The translations under genes were made by a program, and so were the position numbers. Positions 11,362 to 62,665 of a DNA stretch of 64,000 bases are shown here, piece by piece (positions within the stretch are counted from its first letter, which is position 1; every line of letters starts with the position of its first letter). Origin of the DNA: Polytrichum commune (Eukaryota; Streptophyta; Polytrichopsida; Polytrichales; Polytrichaceae); assembly GCA_950295325.1 (NCBI GenBank), contig OX485804.1:60046533-60110532 (forward strand), read 5' to 3'. Under the pieces are notes generated by a model. It searched no databases, was not told the origin of the DNA, and saw only the letters and a list, made by a program, of their open reading frames with translations.

Positions 11362-14300
11362 TTAATCAGCATCATCTCCAAGAAGGACATCACATACCAC
11401 ATCCCAATTGGCGGCATTCCACATTGCACATGCCCAAACTTCACGAAAATGTCATCGCAATTTTTGGGAAAGAGAAAGAAATGAGTGTACTACAAACATC
11501 TTTAATATGTTGTTACTCATTGATCATCGCTCATGTCTTAGTTGCCCTCCCAACTTGCCTACTTCTAGATTGAAGGCCCAAATTCCTTAGGACAAACAAA
11601 AGAGAACAAACATGTAAACTTGACTTGTGTATAATTTAATAGATTCAAATATGTGAATATAAAATGATTCATGCTAATGGATTTTGTATTTTTGAAGTCC
11701 ATATCTTATGAGTCAAAGTGGCATCCAACAAGCGTTAGGATTGGTAGGGCCACGTAGTAGTGTAAAGTGAACATAAGCTATACAAGTCATCCTTGATTCT
11801 ATGGCTAGAATTACTACTTAACTGTAACTTAAAGTTCCTACAATATGCACACTAAATAGTCCTATTAATGTGGGCCACAATAATTTTCTAGAGCTGACGT
11901 TGATTCTCATCTTGAAAATCAATGCATGCCACATTGATTTCAACCCATACTAAACTTCCAGTAGAAATTTGTGTGGGTGATTAGTTTGATTTGTGCTACT
12001 CTTATACCATAACTAGTATTGAATATGTTTGTCGGAAGTCTTTAGAGGAAGTCATGGGGTCTTGGACCCAAGTTAATTCCACCTTCACTAGAAAATCAGT
12101 GTGACCCACTCTATTTTTCCACCCACACACTAATGGAACTATTTGGTGTAGTTATTTTAATTTGCCATGTTTGCTTCAGACGAACTCACAAAAAGTTTGG
12201 ATTATGAAAGGTAATAATAAAAAGTGGAAAGATAATGTAAATGATACACTCCTCTCCCTTTTGGAATTGGTCACATTGGTTTATTCGAGTGACTCCATTC
12301 TTAAGCTTCTTCAAATAACACAAATATATTGTTGTGTAAGTATATAGGTGCCACCATATGCAAGGTAAGATAGACGTGCCTAATTTGATTACTTATGTTG
12401 ATTGGACACCTATATTTGAGTGGTATGTGGTTTGTTGTGGCTCCAAGAAGGTGTATAAAATCAAGACATGTGTTTGAAAGAGATTGGACTACGTTGCTCA
12501 TAACATGGTAACCATTCTAGGGTACTTAGTTATGTTAATTTTGGGGACTTGTATGACCATTTAATGGGCACAAGAAAGTTCACTTTGATAGTAAATAAGA
12601 TATTCATATGATCTCCAAACATTTATGAGGACAATGGCTACAACCTTGAATTATGTTTCCCAACCATCTTATACTAATCGCATGTTTCATATCCTAGGAG
12701 AAGTGGACTAGTTGGAATAATTAACCATTTAAGACCCATCTTTTGTGATGTGTGTGGCCTTACTCAAGAGACTTCCAACTCCACATACGATTTTGGCTGT
12801 TGGATTGGATCATAAGTTCTCTTACCCAATAAGCAATTGCTAGTCACACAAATTGTGATTTGAAATAACAATATGTAAGTACTTCACTTTTCGGTATCAA
12901 AGCTGAGATATGGAGCTTAATATGTAAAATCCTATAGATGCACTAAGCAAATGGCATGTGGAGGATTTGAGTACTAAGTTTTCTATACTTGAAATTTGGA
13001 GCTTTGTATCTATACATATGATGTATATATAGATGCAAACCATCATGTGGAAAATTGAACGATGAGATTTTGATAAAAGTTGCAAATGTCTTCGGATTTG
13101 GAGCTTCAATATTTATCTTGGTAACCACATAGACTCCAAATTATTGTGGTGGAGACTGAAATTACTATTACACTTGAGTTATAGAGCATACTTATAAGTA
13201 ACCCTACATATGTAAACAAATGACACGTAGAGAAATTTGATTGCGAAATCAGCAAAAGTTGCAAATGTCTCAAGATTTGCAACCTTGAGATTAAGTTTAT
13301 TGTTGTTCTGAATATGAGTTATACCTCAATGTCGGCAGTTGGTTAAACTATTTTTCTTGATGTATGGAATTGTGAACGATTGTCTTGTGAATGAGTTGTA
13401 GTTGATTGAGTGAATGAAAATTATGAGTGAGTTGCCTAAGTGTGAGAGAATTGATGTTAAAAAAGGGTGAGTGACGTTTTGAGAGTGTGAATTTGTGAGA
13501 ACATTTGTCCAATAATCAAGTGATATCAAACAAAAATTGATAAACATAATGATCATGTGTGAGAACAAAGTGAAAGCAATTGCATTAATGAATAATGCCT
13601 ATGTTGAGGAGAGTCAAATTGACTCCATTTGCGTGTAATTGTGTAAAACTATTGGTTGAGTGTCCAACAAACACTAAGAGTGGTTAAGAGTATAGCAACA
13701 CCATTGTTCAAGAGTTAAAACTCTTCAGCGTAAAAGAAAGGAAGTATAAGATATCTTTAATATGAGCGGTTTAGTAAAAATATCAGTATAGTGCCAAACG
13801 TACACTTCAAACTTGAGAGCAAATCTAAAACCATTGACTAAAGGTGTCGATTGAGTGACTACTCATAAGTGAAGAACATAGATAAACTATTGGTTGAGGA
13901 AGGCGTTATTGCACCGAGGGTATCGAACCATAGCATGCTAATGCCCGAAAAAAAGATTTGAGTGATTAGGACAGAGCAAGCAAGTGTTAATCAAATGTAC
14001 CTAGAAGAAAAGGAACTATTGACGATGAAGAATATAATAGTTACCCTGTGATAGGAAGAGGGTTAGGTTCACCAAGGGTTACCTAGGAGAGGAGCACTTG
14101 AGTAGCAGTAAGTCTTGTGAAAGACGATGGAAGAGTTAGGAAGAAAGAAGGTCAAGGGTTAGTATGAGAACGATGTCACTTGACTATTGTTGAAGCCTGT
14201 GAAAGGTGAATAACATGAAGAATCATGATATTAAATGTGTGATTCTAGTTTTAAAATAGACTATAGTCTTTTCTGTGAGTATGTAGGAGTTGAATTAGCG

Positions 14301-16009: not shown

Positions 16010-17985
16010 CCTTTTTTTTTTCTTTTTTTTTGGCACAAATCAAAAGCGAATTCAAATGCAAAAGGAAAAGTACAATCACCTTGAGCGAAAACAAAGCAAA
16101 CAAGGGGACTTAAGAAATAATGCCCATCCTAGGTCTAATTTTCCCAAGTAACCACTAAATTGTTACAAGTAACAATAAGATCTTTGGCACACCAAAACAT
16201 TGTCAAAAAGTTTAAGAACATCCTCATAAGCAACATCCGGTGTTTTTTTCAAATCTGTGAGAGTCCATTGCCACTCAAATCTACCATAGTCAAGTAAGGA
16301 ATCCCACACAACTTGGTGTGTTTTCTCCACTGGCCATTGAAGAACATTAAGAATTAGATCATTCCATTGACGCCAAATAATCCACAGAAGACCACTCCTC
16401 AAGAAGAACAAAGTACGACGGAAAGGTTTTAGTGATTTGCTAAGAGATTAATCAAAGGGGCACTATATCATTGAATAAGAATTCTGAGGGCCAAGGTTAT
16501 CTCTTTTAGCAAAGAGTTGCCAAATGATGTTAGTTGCATAGCACCACACTTGTTGAGCCAAAGGGTAGCTAAAGAATCTATGCTCCACCTACTCCACAAC
16601 TGGCAAGCCACGATGGGGGCAACTCTTATGAACCTTTGCCAAGATTTGTCCATGCCATTTGTTCACTGCTACCTTATGATAAACTGACCAAAGGAAGGTT
16701 GCCTCCTTGTATGCCTTGTACTTATGCCAAATGATCCTCCAATTGGGAGAGGTAAAAGGAGGATTTTTGTTCCGCCATTTGTCAGAGATTGATTTTTTAA
16801 GTATCTCTTGAGTAGTGATCCATTTTCTCCCAAACTTGACCAAATATGCAAGGAACGGAGTAATCTCATGCCACCACCACCTCACCATGTCAAAAAAAAC
16901 TGATCCGAATTCTTAAAGAATAAAATGTATTGGGTCTGAGCACTGCCACATGAAAGCATATCCACCCTAATTCTTGACATTCAACCCAAGAATGCCGTGG
17001 GGGCTTCCACATCCCTAGCATACAATTTTACTTCACTAAGGCTAAAGTGTTGTGACTCAACAATGGATTTAAGGAAAATATCTGTAAATGCAACACTAAA
17101 TTGGATGAGTCCCAAACTAAATTCCTTAAAGTAACTTACACTAACCACCCATTCCGGCAACTTAACCTCTTGGTTTTTATACAAACCAACCCATTTATGT
17201 GAAGCGGGATGCGCTCATTGTTGGCTAATCATCCTATCATGGAACAAACCATATTGTTCCAGTAGGTCGACCCAAAAATCGTAATAATCATTTGCAAGGG
17301 AGAATTTGGTATGTGTTCCCTCCCAATTTTTGAAAATGATTCCTTCCCATAAGTTTCTCAAACCTTTACTATAAAGTACACAACCCTTATCCATGGTAAT
17401 GTTGAAGTACAAACCTTGGTATTTAGATTGCCACTAGAGGTTAAGTTGTAAAATATCCTCCAAGCAAGACAAAGATAGAAAAGTCACCATACATGCCATC
17501 ACCTTCCACCATTGAGCAGTATGATACCAAAGTTTTGACCCGCCTTTGATCGAGAAGTTAGGAGGGAACAACCAAAGAGAGGAAGGGCCCCATGAACCAT
17601 GATAAGAAGGTTGGAGTTGCTTAATGTGGTACCTCAATAAGATTTGCAAATTCGACTAGCTAGGTAGAAATGCTTCAGTGATCCATTTACTCATGAGTGC
17701 TCGCATTGTGTCCTCCGGGAAGTAAGGCTAAGACCTCCAAATTTCTTTGGCATCACACAATCTTCCCAACTCCCGTGCTCTTGCAATGGTCTAAACCCTA
17801 ACTAGAGGTAATTAGGCAATAGAGCCTTAATTTTCCTCAAGACTTTCTTTGAACCAGCCCAAACCATACTGAAATACCAAAGGGATGATAACAAAACATG
17901 ATTCACAATGAGTGTTCTGCCAGCAAGCGACAATTCATCCCTATGGATATGCTCTCTCTCTTGCTTGCGCCAAAATACACATGTT
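16010..17985 (-). pseudogene. 5'-truncated LINE (L1-type) relic
   Basis: On the minus strand, several broken frames spell the C-terminal half of a plant non-LTR retrotransposon ORF2. Near 17935-17800 there is LSLAGRTLIVNHVLLSSLWY, the typical end of the reverse transcriptase domain. About 16890-16590 gives a zf-RVT-like stretch with LWSVYHKVAVNKW and a CPHRG knuckle. About 16410-16300 gives an LLWIIWRQWNDLI segment typical of the extreme C-terminus. A T-rich run at 16011-16031 on the plus strand is the poly(A) tail, marking the 3' end. Stops and frameshifts abound. Endonuclease and most of the reverse transcriptase are absent, consistent with 5' truncation during insertion. Confidence 0.82.
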
Positions 17986-18232: not shown

Positions 18233-19765
18233 GTCGCCCGAACCATCGAGCATGGTTTTCTTGTTCTTTTTTTAAATAAATAAATATAATGCAGTAGATG
18301 CTTGATTGATTGCAACAAATAGTACCCAACAGGCTATATTAAACTTGAGCTTGTAAACTTCAAACTCTTTAATATCCACTCATCCTCCTGCTTCCCTTTT
18401 AGATTGAAATAAGGGTGCGGGAAGATTTTTGGCATAAGCAGTCGAGATCCTAGTGTTTCCAAGCCTAACCGGTTACATGTTGACATCTTTTGGTTTTTCT
18501 TTCTTGATTTGAGGTATATTCTATAATCTCCTAAAACGATGGGTAAGTGTAGAACTTGAGCCAAGCCATGTGTCGAACTTGAGATACTATTCACTACTAC
18601 CATGGGATGGGGGGGTTCTTGCAATTGGAATCGTCTCCCAGTCGTAGACAAAAAGCAATATCCCTTTATGTATAATACATGCATGTCAATGCCCCAAATA
18701 ATATCCCTTTTCACACTCTTACTAGTTTGCATGTGGTATGAAGAGTCCACCCCTCAGGGGTCAAGGTTGAGTGGTCATTTTCGTACGTACTAAACATTGA
18801 CATAGGAGAGGATTGACACATATGAACTTCAATCCATTGACAAAATGTTTAGCATTTTCTTAGTAGTGCATTAGTAGTGCATAAAGTAAAGTAGACGAAA
18901 CCATGGGTCGAGTTCTAAACCCTGAGTTTATGAGGATTAACACAACGTCATCCAAGTTTTCTCAATGCTTAATTTACCATACACAAAGAATGATGTCAGA
19001 CTCTAAAAAACCAACTTTCTAGCTTGTCCTACTAGAACGGGTGGGCCAAGCTAGCCTTGCACAGGCCGATCTGGGAGCTAGGACAGTGGGTCCCATGCGC
19101 ATACCCTATTTTAAATCCTAAAATTCTCTCAAAGTATGAAAAATGGAAAGGCAAGTCCCAAAGGTTTCACCCAGCTTCCAAAACAGGGTTCAATACACGA
19201 CGAGCCAACAAGATATCAACAGGAGGTTATCTCAAAGAAGGATCGAACCGACTCCACGGTTCCATCCCTCTCCTCTTTGAGGAACTTTATAGTGAGCTCT
19301 ATTGACACAAGAGCATAATATGACAAACGGTTCGTGTTGAGAATGTTAAGTAGTGGTTTTTGTTTTTTTTTTCCCCCTCTCATTGCTTCACGCCGACTTG
19401 TAAGCTTTCTCTTGTCATTGTTATCCAAGGATTGTCATGAGCGCATGTGAATATCTGCAAGGAAGGCTGCTGAAACTACCGAATTGTTATACATCATACA
19501 CACCAAAGCACCAATCATGGAATTCTGAGGGCCCTCAGTTAGTCAGTGCATGAACTAAGCCACTGACCCAGAATTTGTTTTGTTTTTCCGGAGGAATTCG
19601 GGAAATTTTCAGACAACTGAAGTACATACGAGCTTCCTTCAGAGTTTTTTTTTGCAGTTGACCGGGACGATTCTTTTCTTCACATTATTTCTTCATACTT
19701 TGATACCCGAGTGTCATAGGTTGCAGCGTACATTTTGGGTCCTCTTGGCTCGGGCTTCGTGTGGC

Positions 19766-21104: not shown

Positions 21105-21325
21105 CAAAGGGGAGAATCGAGCGCTAGTTACAGATGAACCAGTTGAGTTTGAGAGAAAACCGGTTGAAGTTCAAGGTTTGATGAGAATTACTGACCATTT
21201 TAGAAGAATCTAGAGAACATAAACTCAGATTAACAAAGAAAAGCTAGAAGATGTCAACATGTAACCAACTTGACTTGGAAACACTAGGACCTTGACCGAT
21301 TATGCCCAAAAGTCCTCCCCGGACA
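21105..21325. mobile_element. MITE family B, copy 1
   Basis: It shares its whole interior with the copies at 29705-29928 and 37924-38305. GCTAGTTACAGATGAACC is followed by GAGTTTGAGA, AACCGGTTGAAGTTCAAG, a GATGTCAACATG block, then CCGATTATGCCCAAA. The right end TCCTCCCCGGACACTG mirrors the GGGGAGA left terminus. The left terminus is diverged. Confidence 0.6.
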
Positions 21326-21555
21326 CTGATCTGTAGCCTTCTGAAACCATTACTTATATAACTTTTATACTCACAATGAATTCTCTACACTGCTTATAGT
21401 TTATTTAGTGTCACGCCCATTATTTGCAAAGGGCCTAAACTAGATGCCTCGAGGTTTCAAAGTGTCATGCCCGCTAATTGCCAATATGGTTGCATTCGTC
21501 AACATACGTAACTTCTTCAAGTTAAATAAATAAATAAATTTATTATGACATATAA

Positions 21556-21820: not shown

Positions 21821-22790
21821 TGCCAAGTGTCATGAAGTGACACTAATGGCGAATTTTGTTAATCATTAGGGCACCCTAGCATACGCCTCGAAAGAGGGTA
21901 AGTGACACTACTACACATGTGACACTAAGCAATGCATTGGTATATTGTACAACTTGTGGCTCCTCTTGTACGTTTTTGGTGTCCCAACTTTGCACCCGCC
22001 ACTGGAACAAAAGAACTTCTAAAACGAAAGGAAATGACAATGAACGTGAGATATTGAGAGGAGGACTCAAGAGTAAGTTACATTATTGGGTTTGGGACGG
22101 ATGGTAATGGATCACGCACTTGAACGTCAAGTGTCATGAGATGACACTAATGGCAAAGTTTGTTGATCATTAGGGCATCCTAGCATACGCATCAGAAGAG
22201 GGTAAGTGACACTATTACACATGTGACACTAACCAGTGCACTGATATATTGTCTATAGCCTGTGGCACAGCCTAGAGGCGAGGCTCCTCTTGTACGCTTT
22301 TTTAGTCCTAGCTTTGCCAGGTCATGCCGTACTGGCCACTAGAACAAAAGAACTTGTAGAACGAAAGGAAATGACAATGAACGTGAGATATTGAGAGGAG
22401 GACTCAAGAGTAAGTTACATTATTGGGTTTGGGACGGATGGTAATGGATCGCGCACTTGAACGCCAAGTGTCATGAGGTGACACTAATGACGAAGTTTGT
22501 TGATCATGAGGGCACCCTAACATACGTCTCATAAGAGGGTAAGTGACACTATTACACATGTGACACTAACCAGTGCACTGGTATACTATATATAGCCTGT
22601 GGCAGAGCCTAGAGGCGAGGCTCCTCTTGTACGCTTTTTTAGTCCCAGCTTTGCCAGGTCGGGCCGTACTGGCCACTGGAACAAAAGAGCTTCCAGAACA
22701 AAAGGAAATGAAAATGAAAGGGGGATATTGAGAGGCGGACTCAAGAGTATGTTACATTATTGGGTTTGGGACGGAGGGGCAGGTGGCCGG
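21821..22790. repeat. Tandem triplication, unit of about 306-336 bp
   Basis: Three head-to-tail units start near 21821, 22127 and 22463. Each opens with CAAGTGTCATGA(A/G)(G/A)TGACAC. Each continues through a GTGACACTA(C/T)TACACATGTGACAC block, a GGCTCCTCTTGTACG block, an AACAAAAGA(A/G)CTTC block and TTACATTATTGGGTTTGGGA. The second and third are nearly the same length; the first lacks about 30 bp near its middle. All three encode a similar short peptide (HWNKR...GGLKS.LHYWVWDG) in one frame, which probably reflects shared ancestry and not a gene. Each unit contains a TGTCA/TGACA mirrored pair. Confidence 0.85.
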
Positions 22791-29481: not shown

Positions 29482-30141
29482 GGGTCAATTTCGACTAAGG
29501 TGAAGAAGTGCATTGGTCAATCAAATTTTTTAACCCAAGACAAGGTTATTTGAGGCAATGGTTGGTACGATGGACAAGATGAGAAAACAATTTCATTTAT
29601 TTATTTTAATTTTAAAGCCTCAAGTTGGAGTTCTGCAGAGGTCAAGTTTCTTGTTCAAGTGTTTGAGATTGCCCAAGAAACTTGACCTCAAGATACCTCT
29701 CCTATGATCGGGGAGAGCCGGCCATTAGTTACAGATGAACCGGTTGAGTTTGAGAACCAACCGGTTGAAGTTCAAGACTGCAGGAAAATTACTGATCATT
29801 TAAGAGGAATTTATAGAATATACCCCAATATAGTAAAGGAAAACCAAAGGATGTCAACATGTCACCGGTTGGACTAGCAAACACTAGGATCTCAACCGAT
29901 TATGCCCAAAAATCTCCCCGATCACTGGACCTCTCCTAGTCAAGAGTGTCGCCATGTTGGCAATCATGTCACTTTTTTCATCCATGGTTGAAGTTCTCCA
30001 CTGAAGAAGTGTTGGCCACAGTGTCAACCCTAACCAGTGAAGAACAAATTTTGTAACCAGACCATAGTTCTCCATTCATTCCCCTAACCCTAAGATTCTT
30101 GACCGGTGCACTTCTTCACTGTAGTAGTCTTAACCCGGCCC
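29482..30141. mobile_element. Tourist-like MITE interrupted by MITE family B
   Basis: It aligns along its length with the intact Tourist-like MITE at 32681-33074. Shared parts are the terminal GACTA(A/T)G(G/A)TGAAGAAGTGC, the internal stem GTCAAGTTTCTTG / CAAGAAACTTGAC, a TTGGCAA(T/C)CATGT block, and a mirrored right end finishing in CGGCCC before TTA. It is longer because a 224-bp element sits inside it at 29705-29928. Confidence 0.7.
29705..29928. mobile_element. MITE family B, nested complete copy
   Basis: The ends TGATCGGGGAGA and TCTCCCCGATCA are exact inverted repeats. The host sequence ACCTCTCCTA occurs on both sides (29695-29704 and 29929-29938), which looks like a target duplication of 8-10 bp. 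The four right-most bases are not mirrored on the left, so the exact junction is ambiguous. An 8-bp duplication at another copy (37916/38306) favours a hAT-like mechanism. It is noncoding. Confidence 0.75.
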
Positions 30142-30448
30142 TTACTGTCATCAGGTTGACCTCAGATTTGCTTTATTTGCTTGTGTTGTGCTTACACATG
30201 TCTGACAAGTGGCCAAGATTCTAGTATTATTCCCTTGGTTTTCATCAATTAAACTAAGGCTGTCAGCAAACATGTTATTGATGAGTGAGAGAAATTCAGC
30301 AAATAATTAAGGAGAGGTGAGGTGAAACCAGGTTGACAAAGGTACATATGTAGTACACTATAACCTTCACTTACGAGATTCCAAGGGAGCACTTTAAGTT
30401 ACTGGTCAAGGCTGTGGAAATTCTTGCTCGTACGATGTATTATTAAGG

Positions 30449-30680
30449 GCAAATGGTCCTAAACGGTACTTTTTTCCAACTAGCCCACTCTTCCTAGGAT
30501 ATGAAACACACGAGGAGTAGTAAAAGATGGTTAGCAAATCCCAAATCGAGGTCATAGCCATTTTCCTCATGATTTTTGGAGCTCATATGAGTGTCTTATT
30601 CATTATCCAAGTGAAGATTCTCGTGCTCATTGAGTGGTCATGTATGTTGACTCCCAAAACAGAGTCAATCAACAAAACAT
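30449..30680 (-). repeat. Foldback family A, inner arm fragment
   Basis: On the plus strand the order GGTACTTTTTTCCAACTAGCC, CTTCCTAGGATATGAAACAC, GGTTAGCAAATCC, GAGCTCATATGAGTG and AGTGAAGATTCTCGTGCTCA is the complement of the family A arm (compare 12540-12735 and 60813-60960). It lies just upstream of the Tc1-like relic. Confidence 0.55.
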
Positions 30681-30990
30681 CAAATTTCGGGAAGCCATAT
30701 CTAGAAGAGTGTTTTTTTTTGGTTGTCAAACCGTTCAATTGGTTTAGATGCGCAATCAAGTTGCCTACTATCCTTCCAGATTTCATCTTGAGCATTGTAG
30801 CAATGAGAGAGAAATTGCATTTTGATTGAACTTATATTTATTGACCTAGTTTTTGGGATTGTTTTTATCACTCACCTTCAATTGCAAGAGTAACTTCACA
30901 ACACCGCCTAGGGTTCTACCTATGAGTTTTGGTTAGTAATGTGGCCTCTTGTGACATTTGCTCTTATTGTTGTGAAGGTTTTCTTTACTC

Positions 30991-32009
30991 ATGAGGGCAT
31001 TACCAGTGGAGAAGAGGTTGAATCCTATAGCCATGTTGCAATATGGGCGTAGTGTAGCACATGTGAAGTGTCAAAATTGTTGGATGTCTCTCAATCTACA
31101 TGCTCTAGGATTCATACAAAGTTGTGTTCCTCATGTGGAGCCTTCAAGAGGAGGGCACCCAAGAAGCATCATGCTACTCAACGACGAGCGCGTGAAAGAG
31201 CCATCACAATTGGTGGAATAGATAATGTTGTCGGCGTGAGGAATGTTTTGAGTGAGCACCTGAATGTGGTAGTGAGCACCAACACAATAAGGCATGCACT
31301 TCATGAAGCATGTCTTGGGTCATTACACAATCCAAAAAACCCATTGCTCATGGCCAAGAATGTGCGTTGCAAGTTGGAATTTGCTCATCATCATCAAGAT
31401 TAGACTATCCATGATTGGTATAAGGTGATGTTTAGCATTGAGACTAAGATCAATCGATTTCAGTCTAATGGTTGCGCTTGGTGTTGGGTGAAGGATGGAG
31501 AATCTCAATTACAAACTCATCATGTGAGTCGGTTAAACATGGAGGTGATGTAATTCTTGTGTATGACTTCCCATGGCATGGGTTACATGTGCAAGATAGA
31601 GGAGAACATGACATTAGCTTTGTGTCTTAGCATTCTTCAAGATGGGCTCATAAAGATAATTGAATGGTACCATTTCAACCCTTCTCGTGTCTTATTTCAA
31701 CATGATAATGATCCTAACCACACTGCAAAATTAGTCAAGCAATGGTTGTCAAAGCATAATTTTGATGTATTTATTTGGCCTCCTCAATCACCTGACCTAA
31801 ATCCAATTGAGCATGTGTGGGCACTTGTGAAACAAATATTAAATGAGTATCCAACACCAACCAAAGGAATGCTTCAATTGGGGGAGCGTGTGCAAGCTTC
31901 TTTCCATTCCATCACACATGCACAATATCAGAGGTTTATCATAGCATGCCCAATTGTATCCAAGATGTTTTCGTTTCTAAGGGAAGGTGGACAAATTATT
32001 GATTTATAA
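30991..32009 (+). pseudogene. Tc1-like (DD34E) transposase relic
   Basis: Fragments in different frames assemble into the whole architecture of a Tc1-family transposase. The N-terminal helix-turn-helix has MLQYGRSVAHV and SKLLDVSQSTCSRIH (near 31030-31115). A second HTH region includes VVVSTNTIRHALHEACLGS and KNPLLMAKN. Then comes the DDE core. The second catalytic Asp lies in LFQHDNDPNHTAK and the Glu in PPQSPDLNPIEHVWA, with exactly 34 residues between them. The first catalytic Asp is lost: FSIET replaces the usual FSDE(S/T) near 31430. There is a TAG stop at 31401, at least two frameshifts, and the WG(C/S) segment before 31560 is gone. It is therefore inactive. I found no terminal repeats or TA duplication. 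Plant Tc1/mariner elements are normally mariner-like DD39D or pogo-like, so DD34E is unexpected here. Confidence 0.88.
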
Positions 32010-32680
32010 GTAGATGTAGGTTACAAAACTGAGCCAATGTATAGTTCTTTTTAAATCATTGTTTCTTCATGTGTAGTTTTGCAATAGACATGAGGCTTTG
32101 GAAATGATATACTAAACTCCGATTATTAACTTACGTATTTGAAAGTTTGTATGTTCTTGTTTTTGTTTGCACGGCATTGTGTGTGAAAATTGATGTAGTG
32201 AGTCAGTGACTATGCTTTAAGAGTCAATCTAAGCATATGTTTGGTAATCTAGGAGAAATGGGGACTAAGATGAGCCTACCAAAAACCAACACCATGTAAA
32301 ACATTTGGGGCTTCAAAAGCATGACTGTGGTCATAGTTGTACATTTAGATTTCATGTTGGTTTGGGATCACCTAGACTCTACATTATTCAGGAAAAAGTG
32401 TTTTTTTAAAAAATAAATCATGAGTCGTGCACCGACTTGCAAAGTATTTTAGGTTAGCCCAGCTTTGACACCAATTCAAAAAACCAAGAATAAAGGAAGG
32501 GGAAGGGGAAAAAAAAATGGGTGGGCCTTTGGGTTACGGAACCTTCACATTTTGACATGCTATCGCATCTTTGACTTCCCACTCCAATGATTGAGAATAG
32601 TTTGAGGAGATGCTATCAAACCTGGGACCTTGTTTGGAAAACACGTACCTAACATGATTTTTCTTCTATAGGTACGCTTA

Positions 32681-33074
32681 GGCTTAGTTTGGACTATGAT
32701 GAAGAAGTGCACTAGTCATTAAAAAGTTTGAGCCCAAGATAAGGTTATTCGAGGCAATGGTTGGTATGGCAGACAAGATAGAGAAACAATTAAATAAATG
32801 TCTCAAGTTGAAGTCCTCTGAAGGTCGAGTTTCTTGTCCTAGGGTTTCAGGTTGTCCAAGAAACTCGACCTGTGCAGAACTCCCCTAACAAAAAGTGGTT
32901 GCCATGTTGGCAACCATGTTAACTTTTCATCACGTTTGAACTTTTTCACCGGAGAAGTCTTGGTTGCATTGTAAACCCTGGTTGGTGAAGAGCCCATTTC
33001 GTAGGCAATCATATTGCTTTGTTCCCCTAAAATTCTTGACCAGTTCACTTCTTCATTGTAGTCTAAACTGGCCC
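32681..33074. mobile_element. Tourist-like (PIF/Harbinger) MITE, intact
   Basis: The left terminus GGCTTAGTTTGGACTA is mirrored by the right terminus TAGTCTAAACTGGCCC. Both ends are flanked by TTA (32678-32680 and 33075-33077), the 3-bp target typical of PIF/Harbinger. GGCC(T)TGTTTGG-like ends are characteristic of plant Tourist MITEs. An internal stem formed by GGTCGAGTTTCTTG and CAAGAAACTCGACC lies near 32823 and 32859. The 394 bp are noncoding. Confidence 0.82.
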
Positions 33075-36964: not shown

Positions 36965-37315
36965 CTTTGTGTCTATTATAAGGTAGACGTGCCCGATTCA
37001 ATTGCTTATCTTGATTTGACACCTACATTTGAGTAATATACGATTTGGTGTGTCTCCAAAAACAAATACCAAATAGAACATGTATTTAAAAAGAGATTGG
37101 ATGGTGTGCTCAGAATATACAAGCCATTGTAGGCTCATTGATCAACATAATTGGGACGACATATACGATTATTTAATGAGATCGATAATAAGATATTCAT
37201 GTGAGCTCCAAAACTTATAAGAAAAATGACTACAACCTCAATCTGGATGAGCTAAACATCTCGTACTAAATTACATGTTTCATATCCTTGAACAACTGAA
37301 GAAGTGGGCTAGTAA
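36965..37315 (+). repeat. Foldback family A, left arm
   Basis: The order is AAGGTAGACGTGCCCGATT, TGACACCTACATTTGAG, AAAGAGATTGGATGGTGTGC, AATTGGGACGACATATACG, AAGATATTCATGTGAGCTCC and TTTCATATCC. It matches 12361-12735 and 60481-60812 throughout. Confidence 0.6.
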
Positions 37316-37923
37316 GCAAAAGTAACCATCTACCTTACCCTTGATTTTAGGTGTCCATAGAAGGTCACAAACCAAAATACATGCACCTAATTACTTACCT
37401 TAATACAAGAGAAGAATGAAACTCCCAGCTCCCGGAGTGAGTCAAGTTTGTAAATGGAGCAATACTTTGACCTCATTCAAATTTTTAATTTATTTTAATT
37501 TATTTTAAAAACAAACAAACAAACAAACAAGTTCCCAAAGTTTGAACCTTTTGAGATAAAGCATTTCACACTCTTTTCCTTGCTTTGCCTCAAGCACTTG
37601 TTGACGCGGGCTTACAAGGGAGCTTGAGTGTGGAGTGTTCCACATAGTTACTTGAGAGTGAATTTCGGTCAGTGTTTTGAATTCATGCAAAATTTGGCAC
37701 AAACGTCACACTATTTTATGGGATTTTCTTAGTTTCCAAAAGAAGTATTGGATTTAATTTAATTAGTGTCGAACGTGCTGTGGGAAAGAATAGAAGAAGA
37801 AAAAAATGAAGGTAGTGAAGTGCAATACAAGTCAAGAACCCAAATTCTTGCTTAGAAGACCAACCACGTGAGTCCATAGTTGAATAATATTTGCACCGGT
37901 ACTATATGTTTGGGACTTGGTGT

Positions 37924-38305
37924 CAATGAACGGGGAACGCCGACTGCTAGTTACAAATGAACCAATTGAGGCCCGGATCCCACCAAACTTTCCGTCTGGT
38001 TCTAGATGTGAAATTGTCTGGAATTATGTTGAGAAATAAATGCTAGCCCATCACTTTTCACACTATTACATCCGGAGATGCCAATGGATGGTGCCAGTAG
38101 TGGCTGGTGTGATCAACCCCTGAGTTTGAAAAATAATTGGTTGGGATTCAAGACTTTAGAAAAAAATTACCGATCATTTTAGAGGAATCTGCATAATGTA
38201 CCTCAAATTGATAAAGAAATACCGAAAGATGTCAACATGGAACCAGTTGCACTTGGAAACGTTGGGATCTTGACTGATTATGCCCAAGAATCTCCTTGGA
38301 CACGG
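37924..38305. mobile_element. MITE family B, copy with internal insertion
   Basis: CTTGGTGT flanks both ends (37916-37923 and 38306-38313), an 8-bp target duplication. The interior matches the other copies except for about 150 extra bases at 37971-38120. The ends are CAATGAACGGGGAA and TTCTCCTTGG..ACACGG in mirrored relation to the family termini. Confidence 0.7.
37971..38120. mobile_element. 150-bp insertion inside MITE family B
   Basis: It is absent from the copies at 21105 and 29705. It is flanked by TGAG on both sides (37967-37970 and 38121-38124), and its ends share a short imperfect mirrored GATC(C/A)CACC. It could be a very small TIR element or a filler insertion. Confidence 0.4.
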
Positions 38306-45025: not shown

Positions 45026-45760
45026 TGTGAATTTTTTTTATTGCCGTCGGTCCGTCGGTCGGTCGGTGTGTCTGTCTATCTGTCAATCTGTCTGTCTGAT
45101 TGGGATTAAGTAAACCGGACGGTTAAACCCTGCACTGCCTGCGTCCAGTGATGCAGGCAGGCGAGTCATCTTGTCTTCTCATAGCCGCTGTCAGCTTGTC
45201 AGAGACGCGGCTATGAGTGCCGGCTAGTGTGATTATACTCCAAATTTTCCCTGAGCTTCCCTTGATTGGCACTTGATTAATCAGTCCTGCTGCCTTGGGC
45301 TAAATTATGGATCCCCTTTGGTGATGAAGCATTGGAAATCATCTACCCGAGTTGCATGTTGTTTGTACTTTTGTTGGAACTCAATGGTACAGTGGTGTGT
45401 GAGTTTTTTTCCTCTTTCTTTCTTCATCTCCTCGCTCCTCGGTGTCAATGTGGAAGTGATTGCAGCAGCATTGTTGCGGGAATCCTTATTCATTCCTACC
45501 CTGGCAGCAGCTGCAGGAGATACAGGGAGGAGGTTGGGCTGACCTGGAAATGAGGATGAGGATGAGGATGCGTTGAGATTCGTGTCCTGGGATGATCGTG
45601 CTGCATTGAGGTGCGAGAGAGGGGTGGCGTTGTTGGTCGTTATCATTGACGACAATCTAATCTATCTTCGATGTGGGGGAGTTTTTGGGGAGGGAGGGAA
45701 AAAGGTACAGGTTGTAATTGTAAGATGATGATGTCGTAGGCGGGGAGCCCAAGAGAGGCG

Positions 45761-48700
45761 ATGGATCCGAGGTGGGGGGAATTGGTGAGGGAGAAGAATA
45801 GTAGTACGACAAGCTGCAGGCATCCAAGAGTGTTGTCACCATCCTCCAAGAATGTTGCTGTCACGGCGGCCCATGGCTATGTGAAGAGCGAAGAGGAGGA
45901 GGACGACGGTGAGTTACCACTCTTCTTCCCCGCTTCTTCTGACTCCCTCCTTAATACAGACGGACAAATTGACAACAATCCAAATGAGGTAATGCGAAGT
46001 AGCTTGGAGCCGGGTATAATGCTGCGGACTAGTGAGGCTGGGTGGCCACTCGCCAGCCATGAGATGGCAGCGAGCTTGGCAGGCAGCTTGGCAGGGAGTT
46101 TTCGTTTCGATGTTGAGCTTAACCACCCCGAATTGCAACAAGAGGAGGCGGCCACAGTAGTTCTGGAGAAGCGCCCCACTCCCAGTCCCAGCTTCGGAGG
46201 CAAATTCCTTAAAAGTCATCAGATTCCAGCTTCTCCGGGCGCAAGTTTCCGGACCTTCACGTTTCAAGGTGTTGAGGAATTGGATCGACGGCATTACGGG
46301 TTTCTGAAACCGTCGAGACAGAATGAGCATCATCACCAGCATCCAGATGCTTATGGTTTCGTCAACACCACCACGACCACCACCACAACAACAACATTGG
46401 TGTCGAATGCTGCGGCGTCACCGAGAGTGTTAAGCCCCAGGGATGAGGTTGTGCTGAAGCTCTCGAATCTGAAGGCAAATGGCAGGGAGGAAGTTCTTGA
46501 AGAGACTCTAGTGAAGAAGAAAAAGGACAACAAGAAGCTTCTTGTTGTTGCTTCTTCTGGTCATGTGGATGTGAAGCCATTGAACCTCATATTGAAATCA
46601 AGCCAACCATCACTGACCGAGTATGTTGTGTCCAAGAGCCGCAACCAATCCCCACGAACACCATCCTCCTCCGCCCTTTCAATGCAATCTTCTTCCCCAC
46701 GCATCATCAACAATATGCAACAGCAGCAAGGGAATAATAAGAATCATCACATCTTGGGGGAGCTCGAAATCATGCCAACCAACACCCCTTCTTCTCGCCT
46801 CAGAAACAACAACAACAACGAGGTCATCCTTCTTCAACAGCCGCAGGAGCAAGGGGAGACGAATCATCTGCAGGCCGCCACTCCACCACCGAGGAAAGTA
46901 GCTGGGAACTCCAACTCCAACTCCAACTCTATACAGGACCAAATTGTGAGCATTCGCAAGCACTCGCTGGCTATGGCGAAAAGGCGGGTAGGAGTGGGGG
47001 TAGGAATGACAAGCAGCCCATCACCGGACCATCACAACATCACATCCCCTCACAGCATCTCAGCAGCTGCTGTTCCATTCAATTGGGAGGTGCAGCCTGG
47101 GAAGCCTAAGACACTCGCCGAAGCTGCACAGCGAGCTTTAGCTCGCAAGTTGTCACGAGAAGCCGTAGAGTTCATCACCAATTCAGAAGACCAAAAGTTG
47201 GGGGTAAGGCAGCAACAATCTGTGGAGGAGTCATCATCAGATAGGTGTGGATGGTCGAAACATGATGAGGGAAAGGATGCTCAAACTTTATTACCGAAGA
47301 GTAGTGCACTTAGCCCTTCCCATAACAATAATACCTCTTCTCTCTGCAAAGAGAATGGGATTGCAGAGAGGAGTGGAAGCCACAGGTACTATGGTAGAGG
47401 TCATTCAAGGGAGGCAAGCTGGGGGAGGTCGAGCAGGAGATACAGCAATTGCGAGCAGAGGGATGCTCACATTGATCTTGTTGCACCTGCAGCTGCCAAG
47501 TTTTTGGTTTGTGAGAGTGGCGAGTCGCCTGCGGGAACACCGAGCAGAAGAGGTGGATCTTCCCCTACGGTTGCTGTGCCATTCAAGTGGGAAGATGCAC
47601 CGGGTAAGGCTAAAGTGGAGATGGCAGCTAAAAAACCACACACTCTGCAGTTACCCCCTCGCTTGACTGTTTCTTCCAACCGGGTGGGTTCAGATGGGTC
47701 AACTCGTGATCTTCGAGGTTCCTATTTCTTCCCACAACCTTTTGCAGGGTTGTTTGCTCCTTGTATGACAGCGGCGGGTTCGTCACCAGTGTTAAGGCAA
47801 AGCGAGGGAGCATCAGCATTTATGCATCAGTATGGTCACGGTGCTAGCAACAAGAATTTGAGCTTGCCTCCTAAGGTCCCCAATCCTGGGTTGTTGGTGG
47901 GGAATTGTAATTCGGCGCCAAGAGAAGGGTGTCACATCCGTGTTTCGAAATCCTTCCAAGAGAAGGGAGTTAACCACAACCCCAACCTCAACCCCAGCAA
48001 GATTGGTAGGGCATTGTCTGGGCCGTTGCCTGCCATGGAGTCATCGAATGTGATGATACCTCGGAAGCTTTTCAGCTCCGAACTGAAGCCTTCCCACCCA
48101 TGGATGCATCATCATCACAAGGGGAATGGCATCATCAACAACAACAACAACATTAACCCTAACCCTTCCTCCTCACCTACAAGCATTTTGTATGGGCCAG
48201 ACGAGGGGGGGAGCCAGTCTTCAACTTCCAACATGTTTTCTAGCGGTGATTTGGAGGCTTTTACTCAGCAAACCACTCTCTCTGGGAAGTCTGCTTCCAA
48301 ATCTGGCTCCAACACTTCGTATGGGTCAATTGAGGAGGATTTTGATGATCCAGCCAGCCCTTTGGGCAGTAGCCTGCCTGTAGCTGTAGCTCTCCCCTTT
48401 GAGGTGATTCCACCTGAAGGATCAGCATTACCCTCGCCCAACTGCATGCACCTCGGTCCAACCGTGGCCGAATTCTCCTCAGGAAAGGCACATTACAGGT
48501 CAAAAGCCACACCTGAGGGCGGCGTGAAAGCGTTGCTCAAGCTTTGCAAAACCAGCAACTGTTTGGGGAAACCCAAGGGCCATCATCAACAACGGCTGAG
48601 CAATGCAATTTACAGCCCTGACGTTTGGGCTCCCACCCTTGCAACCTACTTTCAGACATGTGAGGCAACTGAAGGCACTGCAACAAGTGAGCTCCTTGGT

Positions 48701-49859
48701 GAGAGTTTGGGGCCAACTTCAAGTGGCTACCTGAACAGCAAAGGAGAGCCGCTTGCACTCAAAGATCTGCCCAAAGACCATGGTAATGCGTCCCCCAAAC
48801 CCGCGACACGGTTGCCTTACACGATGCCCAGTGTTGCTGAGCAAGAACTAAGGGCCAAAACAAGTTTCCCTAGCAAATCTTCGATCCTGGTGAAAAGCCT
48901 CTCAGGCAGGCAGCTCACCCCGAGTGGGTCGGGTGCCAACACCCCTGCAAGAGTGGAGAGGTATTTGATGGCCGCCGCGCATGCGAGTCAAGGTGAGGAT
49001 GTTGTGCCATCTCCAGCTTATGCAGCTGCTTTGGAGTTGTTGTCTCCTGCGGTGACCCTCATGGCGCATAGACGAAAGAATTTGGGGGCTCATCCCAAGG
49101 CACCTCGTCATGCGGCTCATGCGAAAGGGCCCGCGGCTCCGAAACCACGCAGGCGTGCTCGATTCATTGTAAGCAATTTGTTTGTGTTAAATCTTTAGGG
49201 TTCATCCTTTTTTTGATGTTTTTTTTATTAAGGGCCTCTGTTCCACCTGTGGTTACGTTGCTCTTGGGGTTGTCACACAAAACTTGAGCTCAAGCTCAAG
49301 TTTGCAAGTTTGGTGGGCCAACGTAAAAGAAATTGAGCCCTTACATGTGCCTAATATGGTTCTCATTGTAAGCAATTTGTTTGTGTTGTTTAAGGTTCAT
49401 CCTTTTATTGATGTTTGTGAATGAGGATCTCTGTTCCACACGTGGTTACATTGCTCTTGGGATTGTCACACAAAACTTGAGCTCAAGCTCAAGTTCGGTG
49501 GGCCAAGGTAAAAGAATTTGAGCCCTTACATGTTCCTAAGATGGTTCACTGTAAGCCATTTGTGTTGTTTGTGTGAGTCATCCTTTTGTTTGATGTTTGT
49601 GAATGAGGATCTCTGTTCCACCTGTGGTCACATTGCTCTGTTTAGTGAAATGGTTGGCAGATTTGCTGGTTTTTTCTGATGATTATGGTCATTTTGGTGA
49701 ATGCAGCTGTCGATATGCAAAACCCTGAAGCGGGTTCTCTTCGGACAACGGAACCACAAGGCAGGTGTGGAGGCAAAGCTGATGTACCATAATGGCCAGG
49801 CTCCTACCACCTTCCAATTTTCGAAGGTACTTACTGCTACAAATATATTGCATGATTGA
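45761..49859 (+). CDS. DUF688-type plant protein
   Basis: Two exons, 45761-49168 and 49707-49859, both phase 0 at the junction (ATT|GTAAGC donor, ATGCAG acceptor), give 1186 residues. The start is the first ATG of a 3.4-kb open frame. Two copies of the family signature are visible: VPFNWEVQPGKPK (residues about 438-450) and VPFKWEDAPGKAK (about 606-618). Such VPFxWExxPGxPK motifs characterise the plant DUF688 family, whose function is unknown to me. The rest is low-complexity and probably disordered: an acidic stretch EEEEDDGE near residue 50, a T10 tract near 206, Asn runs, and Ser/Pro-rich spacers. A conserved-looking YAAALELLSPAV lies near 1087 and the C-terminus is basic (KPRRRARF then TLKRVLFGQRNHK). 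It is long compared with the family members I know. TCGAAG|GTACTT near 49826 could be another donor, which would move the true end downstream. Confidence 0.85.
49165..49645. repeat. Tandem triplication spanning the exon 1 donor
   Basis: Three head-to-tail units begin near 49165, 49362 and 49547. The first two open with CATTGTAAGCAATTTG and the third with CTGTAAGCCATTTG. They continue with a TTCATCCTTTT block, a CTCTGTTCCAC(C/A)(T/C)GTGG block, CACAAAACTTGAGCTCAAG and TTGAGCCCTTACATGT. The third unit is truncated. The first unit contains the actual splice donor, so the donor is duplicated within the intron (49169-49706). Confidence 0.85.
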
Positions 49860-60480: not shown

Positions 60481-61147
60481 GTAAGGTAGATGTGCTTAAA
60501 TCCAACAACTCAATTATTTGGACACCTGTATTTGAGTGGTATGTGGTTAGGTGTGGATCTAAGAACTGGCAACCAAATAAAGGCATGTGTTCTAAAGAGA
60601 TTGGACTACGTGATATGCTCATCATTCTAGATTCAATAGTCAACATGATTGGGAGGACCTATATGGCCACTTAATGAACACGAGAATCTTCACTTTGACA
60701 TTGAAAAGATTTTCATATGAGCTCAAAAATTTACAAGGCAAATGGCTATGGACACAATTTGAATTTGCTATCCATCTTGCACTGATTTTGTATTACATAT
60801 CTAAGGCACGATTGCCTTACACAGGGTCTTAAATCGGTACTTTTGTAATTAGCCCACTTATCCTAGGCTATTACACGCAATTGATACAAGATGATTGCAA
60901 ATCCACATCAAGGCCATAGCCAATTTTTTCCCCATAAGTTTTGGAGCTCATGTGATAAATAGACATAAAAATGTTAACCAATTTTGATCATGTAGTCTAG
61001 TCTTTTTCCAACACACTGGTAGTTATTGATGTCCATACTGCTGAGATGATCGTTCCTACTTTGAGTGGTCTATGATTCCCAATCACAGACCACTCAAATA
61101 TAGGTGTTTAATACACACAAATAATTGAATTAAGCCAGCTTACCTTA
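60481..61147. mobile_element. Foldback family A, full-length element
   Basis: Two long mirrored arms of about 330 bp make up the whole element. The left end GTAAGGTAGATGTGCTTAAA is mirrored by the right end AAGCCAGCTTACCTTAC. CACCTGTATTTGAGTGGTAT is mirrored by ACCACTCAAATATAGGTGTT, and GAGCTCAAAAATTTA with ATGGCTATG is mirrored by GGCCATAGCC...AAGTTTTGGAGCTCATG near the centre. Only a short central loop (near 60800-60830) is unpaired. There is no coding capacity. No clear target duplication was found, so superfamily assignment is open. At least ten partial arms of this family are scattered through the window. Confidence 0.7.
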
Positions 61148-62284: not shown

Positions 62285-62665
62285 CCTGCTAAGGTAAGCA
62301 GGCCTTAAAACTGACACTTTTTAGCTGTGCACCCACTTTTCACAGGATTCAAAACACGCAATCAGTGTGAGATGATTAGCAAATCCAAATCGTGCATGTA
62401 GCCATTTCCCCATAATTTTTAGAGCTCATACGAGTATCTAATTCATTATGATAGTGTATAATTCCTTTCTCAAATGTCCCCCCGATTATGTTGATTATTG
62501 AGCCTAGAATGGTTTACAAAATTTGAGCACGTAGACAAACCTCTTTCAAATACACGTCTCGTTGGTGTCCATTCTTGGATCCACACCCTAACCACACCTC
62601 ACTCACATATAGGTGTCCGTTAAAGGTGAGTAACCGAATTAGGCCCACTGACCGTCAGCATATTA
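62285..62665 (-). repeat. Foldback family A arm
   Basis: It reads inner arm first on the plus strand: TTAAAACTGACACTTTTTAG, CCACTTTTCACAGGATTC, GATTAGCAAATCC, GAGCTCATACGAGT, then ACACGTCTCGTTGGTGTCC, CACATATAGGTGTCCGTTAA and AGGCCCACTGACC. It closely parallels 30449-30680 plus 33735-33862. Confidence 0.55.

Follow-up and report, generated by a model that had tools for sequence, protein, structure and literature searches.

Positions 30991-32009 (+) of the window, by which we mean the whole 64-kb stretch of DNA analyzed, hold the broken reading frame of a Tc1-like transposase (Table 1). The interval had been described beforehand as a dead Tc1-like transposase relic, and this identification is borne out by matches to the Pfam families DDE_3 and HTH_Tnp_Tc3_2, by similarity to Sleeping Beauty (SB), and by an in-frame stop accompanied by frame changes. 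We are confident that the relic is what is left of a dead cut-and-paste DNA transposon of the Tc1-like kind, present as the only copy in the window and lying in a chromosome that resembles that of a land plant.

Table 1. Parts of the transposase relic, in window coordinates.
Part	Position	Strand	Content and basis
N-terminal part, first frame, from ATG	30991-31060	+	Translation; possible start of first helix-turn-helix (HTH), by eye; right boundary approximate
Second frame: presumed end of first HTH, second HTH, linker	31053-31403	+	Pfam match, translation
Start of catalytic domain	31404-31550	+	Same frame as 31053-31403; Ile in place of first Asp
SVKHGGDVILVY in third frame	31529-31564	+	Aligns where Sleeping Beauty has TVKHGGGSIMLW; modest support
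Main catalytic part	31554-32009	+	151-aa frame, second Asp to Glu, through final stop

Catalytic and DNA-binding parts of the relic

The 151-aa frame at 31554-32009 (+) matches DDE_3 (E 3.2e-13; 50.2 bits, against a curated cut-off of 28.6). Compared with solved structures, it finds Sleeping Beauty SB100X as its top match (PDB 5cr4; E 5.4e-18), with Mos1 ranking second (E 8.2e-6). The second catalytic Asp is encoded by the GAT codon at 31704-31706 and the catalytic Glu by the GAG codon at 31809-31811; exactly 34 residues separate the two, just as the preliminary description had claimed. Its title, by calling the relic DD34E, implied a full triad, and here it went too far: in an ungapped alignment to Sleeping Beauty, the position of the first Asp reads Ile (ATT codon, 31437-31439), and the relic keeps two of the three catalytic residues. 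The segment that carries this position, 31404-31550, is without a meaningful Pfam match when searched alone. It does align with SB100X without gaps, at 13 identical residues of 30 (E 5e-6), and this score was reached by none of 500 shuffles. Because the neighboring residues are kept, we read the Ile as probable decay of a former DD34E member, of which the relic would be a dead descendant.

The relic had also been credited with both N-terminal DNA-binding regions. For the second of these, the frame at 31053-31403 (+) matches HTH_Tnp_Tc3_2 over its residues 64-116 (E 7.5e-9; 36.2 bits, against a curated cut-off of 31.5), covering profile positions 21-72 of 72. To search across the breaks, we used a read-through in which the frames are joined at the protein level with an X placed at each break. 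The first 115 residues of this read-through, taken alone, scored 14.4 bits against the same profile (E 0.049), which is below the cut-off, and most of the match is therefore owed to the linker that follows the HTH. BLASTP of the same frame against a Tc1 sequence entered by hand gave a weak match (E 8e-5), and solved structures gave none at E<=5. What is detected is part of the second HTH plus the linker; the first HTH, which is plausible by eye, has no profile behind it, as the read-through returned no Pfam match for this domain at E<=10.

Several lesions interrupt the coding sequence. A TAG stop lies in frame at 31401-31403, and a frame change near 31060 was judged by eye. In addition, the stretch SVKHGGDVILVY is read in a third frame. 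No Pfam family matches 31529-31564, and the frame 31469-31627, when compared with SB100X, gave its best alignment at the expected place with a score that 17 of 500 shuffles reached, which lends modest support to taking this stretch as a putative remnant matching Sleeping Beauty. Such a stretch entails two frameshifts around it, bringing the frame changes in the relic to three when it is counted together with the by-eye change near 31060. Given the in-frame stop, the frame changes and the replacement of Asp by Ile, this copy is dead, and its decay is shown by the sequence.

Ends, copy number and surrounding DNA

CAGT-type termini and TA duplications, which the preliminary description had associated with intact copies, were sought around the relic, where neither a CAGT left end nor an inverted match above shuffles was found. 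CAGT is absent from the + strand of 30301-31000, the region searched for a left end, and ACTG is present to the right of the relic at 32028 and 32324. When 30683-30990 was compared with 32010-32676, the top ungapped match in inverted orientation scored 20, with a shuffle mean of 20.12, and 60 of 100 dinucleotide shuffles reached this score. A wider search yielded a 43-bp gapped inverted pair (30647-30688 and 32185-32227; E 0.064), which we rejected as the ends of the element: the left arm of this pair runs into a dispersed repeat situated just upstream of the relic at 30455-30657; judged by eye, other copies of that repeat seem to run on slightly further. Neither blastn nor tblastn found a second transposase copy in the 64-kb window, and with one copy only, ends that are eroded or displaced are indistinguishable from ends that are absent.

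Copies of the dispersed repeat occur at 12553-12736, 37187-37321, 60649-60955 and 62332-62449, and a 31-bp piece of it lies at 54.8 kb. The relic itself is bracketed by a single kind of MITE, present once on the left (about 29482-30141) and once on the right (32681-33074), both copies pointing the same way. Another repeat breaks up the left MITE copy. The right one has inverted ends and TTA on each side, features that suggest a PIF/Harbinger (Tourist-like) element. The repeat nested in the left MITE (about 29705-29937) has relatives at 21109-21328, 38121-38295 and 18418-18532. The copy of the dispersed repeat at 60649-60955 consists of two arms in opposite orientation, resembling a foldback element or a long-armed MITE.

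For host genes, 30 chosen stop-free frames outside the relic were scanned with Pfam, and a single one passed its cut-off: the frame at 45740-49198, which runs unbroken from stop to stop over 1152 aa, includes several low-complexity runs, and matches DUF688 at 24.3 bits (cut-off 20.3). DUF688 is presumably a plant-specific family. Among eight titles out of 17 papers that contain this word, six concern plants, two of these six being on DUF668. Rfam gave no matches in the window, and no tRNA was found there. Two tandem arrays were observed, one at 21998-22775 with 2.3 copies of a 337-bp unit, and the other at 49164-49639 with a 193-bp unit, overlapping the end of the DUF688 frame. Frames at 16166-16912 (-) had a LINE-like look by eye, but were set aside with no Pfam match. 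The earlier placing of the relic in a plant genome agrees with this picture, in that the DNA around it looks like that of a plant; as far as the window sequence goes, this identity rests on one Pfam match, that of the DUF688 frame in the contig.

Placement among related transposases

Searches for relatives found seven loci in bacterial and archaeal genomes. Among plasmids, eight records matched, of which seven are annotated as IS630 at the match and one carries no annotation; among phages, the single matching record (E 7e-3) is labeled a helix-turn-helix protein. Viral contigs held no relatives for either query used, the 151-aa piece or a three-sequence alignment. These viral, bacterial, archaeal, plasmid and phage searches have no bearing on plant, fungal or animal relatives.

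Five of the seven bacterial loci, all of IS630 type, were placed in a tree of nine sequences together with the relic, SB100X, and Tc1 and Mos1 (both entered by hand); the remaining two, L006 and L007, come from the genome that also contains L005 and were not included. Branch values in this tree are local support, not bootstrap. In line with the preliminary description, the relic joins SB and Tc1 (0.956), not mariner or IS630, and it falls outside the SB and Tc1 pair (pair support 0.896). Since fungal, plant and pogo rows are absent, this result shows that the relic is of Tc1 type, and nothing further on its source. Pairwise comparison gives 37.6% identity to Sleeping Beauty over 117 residues, and 36.5% over 96 residues to Tc1, again with the sequence entered by hand. 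These animal DD34E elements have the D-34-E spacing, as aligned, in common with the relic; unlike them, the relic is dead and lies outside their pair in this small tree.

A reading in which the relic is a remnant of a plant mariner (DD39D), a pogo element or a bacterial IS630 element, misread as Tc1, has some basis in the IS630 side of these comparisons: IS630 profiles and the bacterial loci also match, though more weakly, and L005 branches beside the group of relic, SB and Tc1 (support 0.756), apart from the other four loci. Yet the IS630 profile scores 48.7 bits against the relic, below its cut-off of 100, and BLASTP ranks SB (79.0 bits) and Tc1 (63.9) above the best IS630 locus (45.4) and Mos1 (40.8); one bacterial locus, L001, the frame of which ends within the domain, has no listed BLASTP match. 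The original assignment to Tc1 instead of DD39D or pogo is further upheld by the spacing of 34 with Glu, and the 151-aa frame matches no Pfam family other than DDE_3 at E<=1. Pogo elements, by comparison, feature a DDE_1-type catalytic domain. The third catalytic residue is Glu, not Asp as in mariner and PlantMar. PlantMar, a plant family described as DD39D in the available part of its report, comprises mariner-like elements that have the superfamily and plant hosts in common with the relic, but they combine a spacing of 39 with Asp where the relic combines 34 with Glu (PMC7325037). We therefore regard a misreading of this kind as exceedingly improbable. Only slightly more credence can be given to contamination by DNA of a fungus or an animal, whether of this stretch or of the contig as a whole. 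It would fit the frequent occurrence of Tc1-like elements in animals and fungi, and the single copy of the transposase in the window; against this, copies of one MITE sit on both sides of the relic, and the repeat just upstream of it recurs at about 12.6, 37.2, 60.7-60.9 and 62.4 kb, making the locus continuous with the contig that bears the DUF688 frame. Together, the MITE pair, the recurring repeat and the DUF688 frame make contamination very unlikely.

Plant precedents and the origin of the element

Tc1-like elements of plants have been reported before; the papers are cited here from those parts of their text that were available. In 2014, Liu and Yang described DD34E elements of the Tc1-like kind from the moss Physcomitrella as well as from nine angiosperms, naming PpTc1 and PpTc2 in the moss and BnTc, HvTc, PtTc and others in angiosperms. 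The majority are fragmented, most of the angiosperm ones are single-copy, and their occurrence is patchy (PMC4054914). By this description, PpTc1, PpTc2 and the angiosperm elements resemble our relic in having a DD34E-type transposase in a plant genome. The moss elements, however, occur in multiple copies and have CAGT ends and TA duplications, and some of their frames are intact (PMC4054914), whereas the relic has lost its ends and its first Asp. A DD34E copy in a plant had raised the question of horizontal acquisition or an overlooked lineage; in view of the 2014 reports from moss and nine angiosperms (PMC4054914), the premise that such a copy would be new is incorrect. Plants are also included in a list of DD34E/Tc1 hosts (PMC7731502). 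Sailor, a different family, is described from one land plant (PMC8533490), and in BAC and fosmid sets of loblolly pine, Mariner/Tc1 accounts for 0.32%, a figure in which the class is not split (PMC3762812). A 2020 study of Physcomitrium found PpTc1 and PpTc2 to be closest to fungal elements and suggested horizontal transfer from fungi, and its available text gives no significant hits for Marchantia, Arabidopsis or rice (PMC7466625). As far as the available parts of both papers go, the null search in rice fits poorly with the rice element described in 2014 (PMC4054914).

Against this background, and as a refinement of the main reading, a Tc1-like element may have been transferred horizontally into the plant lineage long ago, the donor being a fungus or some other non-plant organism, and then decayed. 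We give this reading less than even odds. It draws some support from the grouping of the moss elements PpTc1 and PpTc2 with fungal ones, as given in the available text (PMC7466625), from the patchy distribution described for plant Tc1-like elements (PMC4054914), and from the position of the relic outside the animal pair of SB and Tc1 in the nine-sequence tree; that tree, without fungal or plant Tc1-like rows, offers no pointer to a donor. That an old Tc1 DD34E lineage, possibly derived from fungi, became set up in the ancestors of this plant, and that the present copy is its now fully degenerate product, strikes us as rather unlikely.

How the element formerly worked we infer from its family. 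In a living element, the transposase would bind the inverted ends through two helix-turn-helix domains, the DD34E site would cut the element out, and the excised element would be reinserted at TA. The reading frame, the first catalytic aspartate and recognizable ends have since been lost, and the relic now has small non-autonomous transposons on either side.

The relic is an ordinary, decayed representative of a kind of element already known, and another example of a Tc1-like element in a plant. On its own it matters little, adding one more degenerate plant copy. It has a modest use as a fossil physically embedded among host repeats, and in this respect makes a cleaner case than an isolated short contig would. 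If the copy does descend from an old lineage, possibly of fungal origin, in the ancestors of this plant, the horizontal transfer proposed for moss would also hold for a further plant lineage, and the same insertion, if found in related species, would set a minimum age for the invasion of plants by Tc1.
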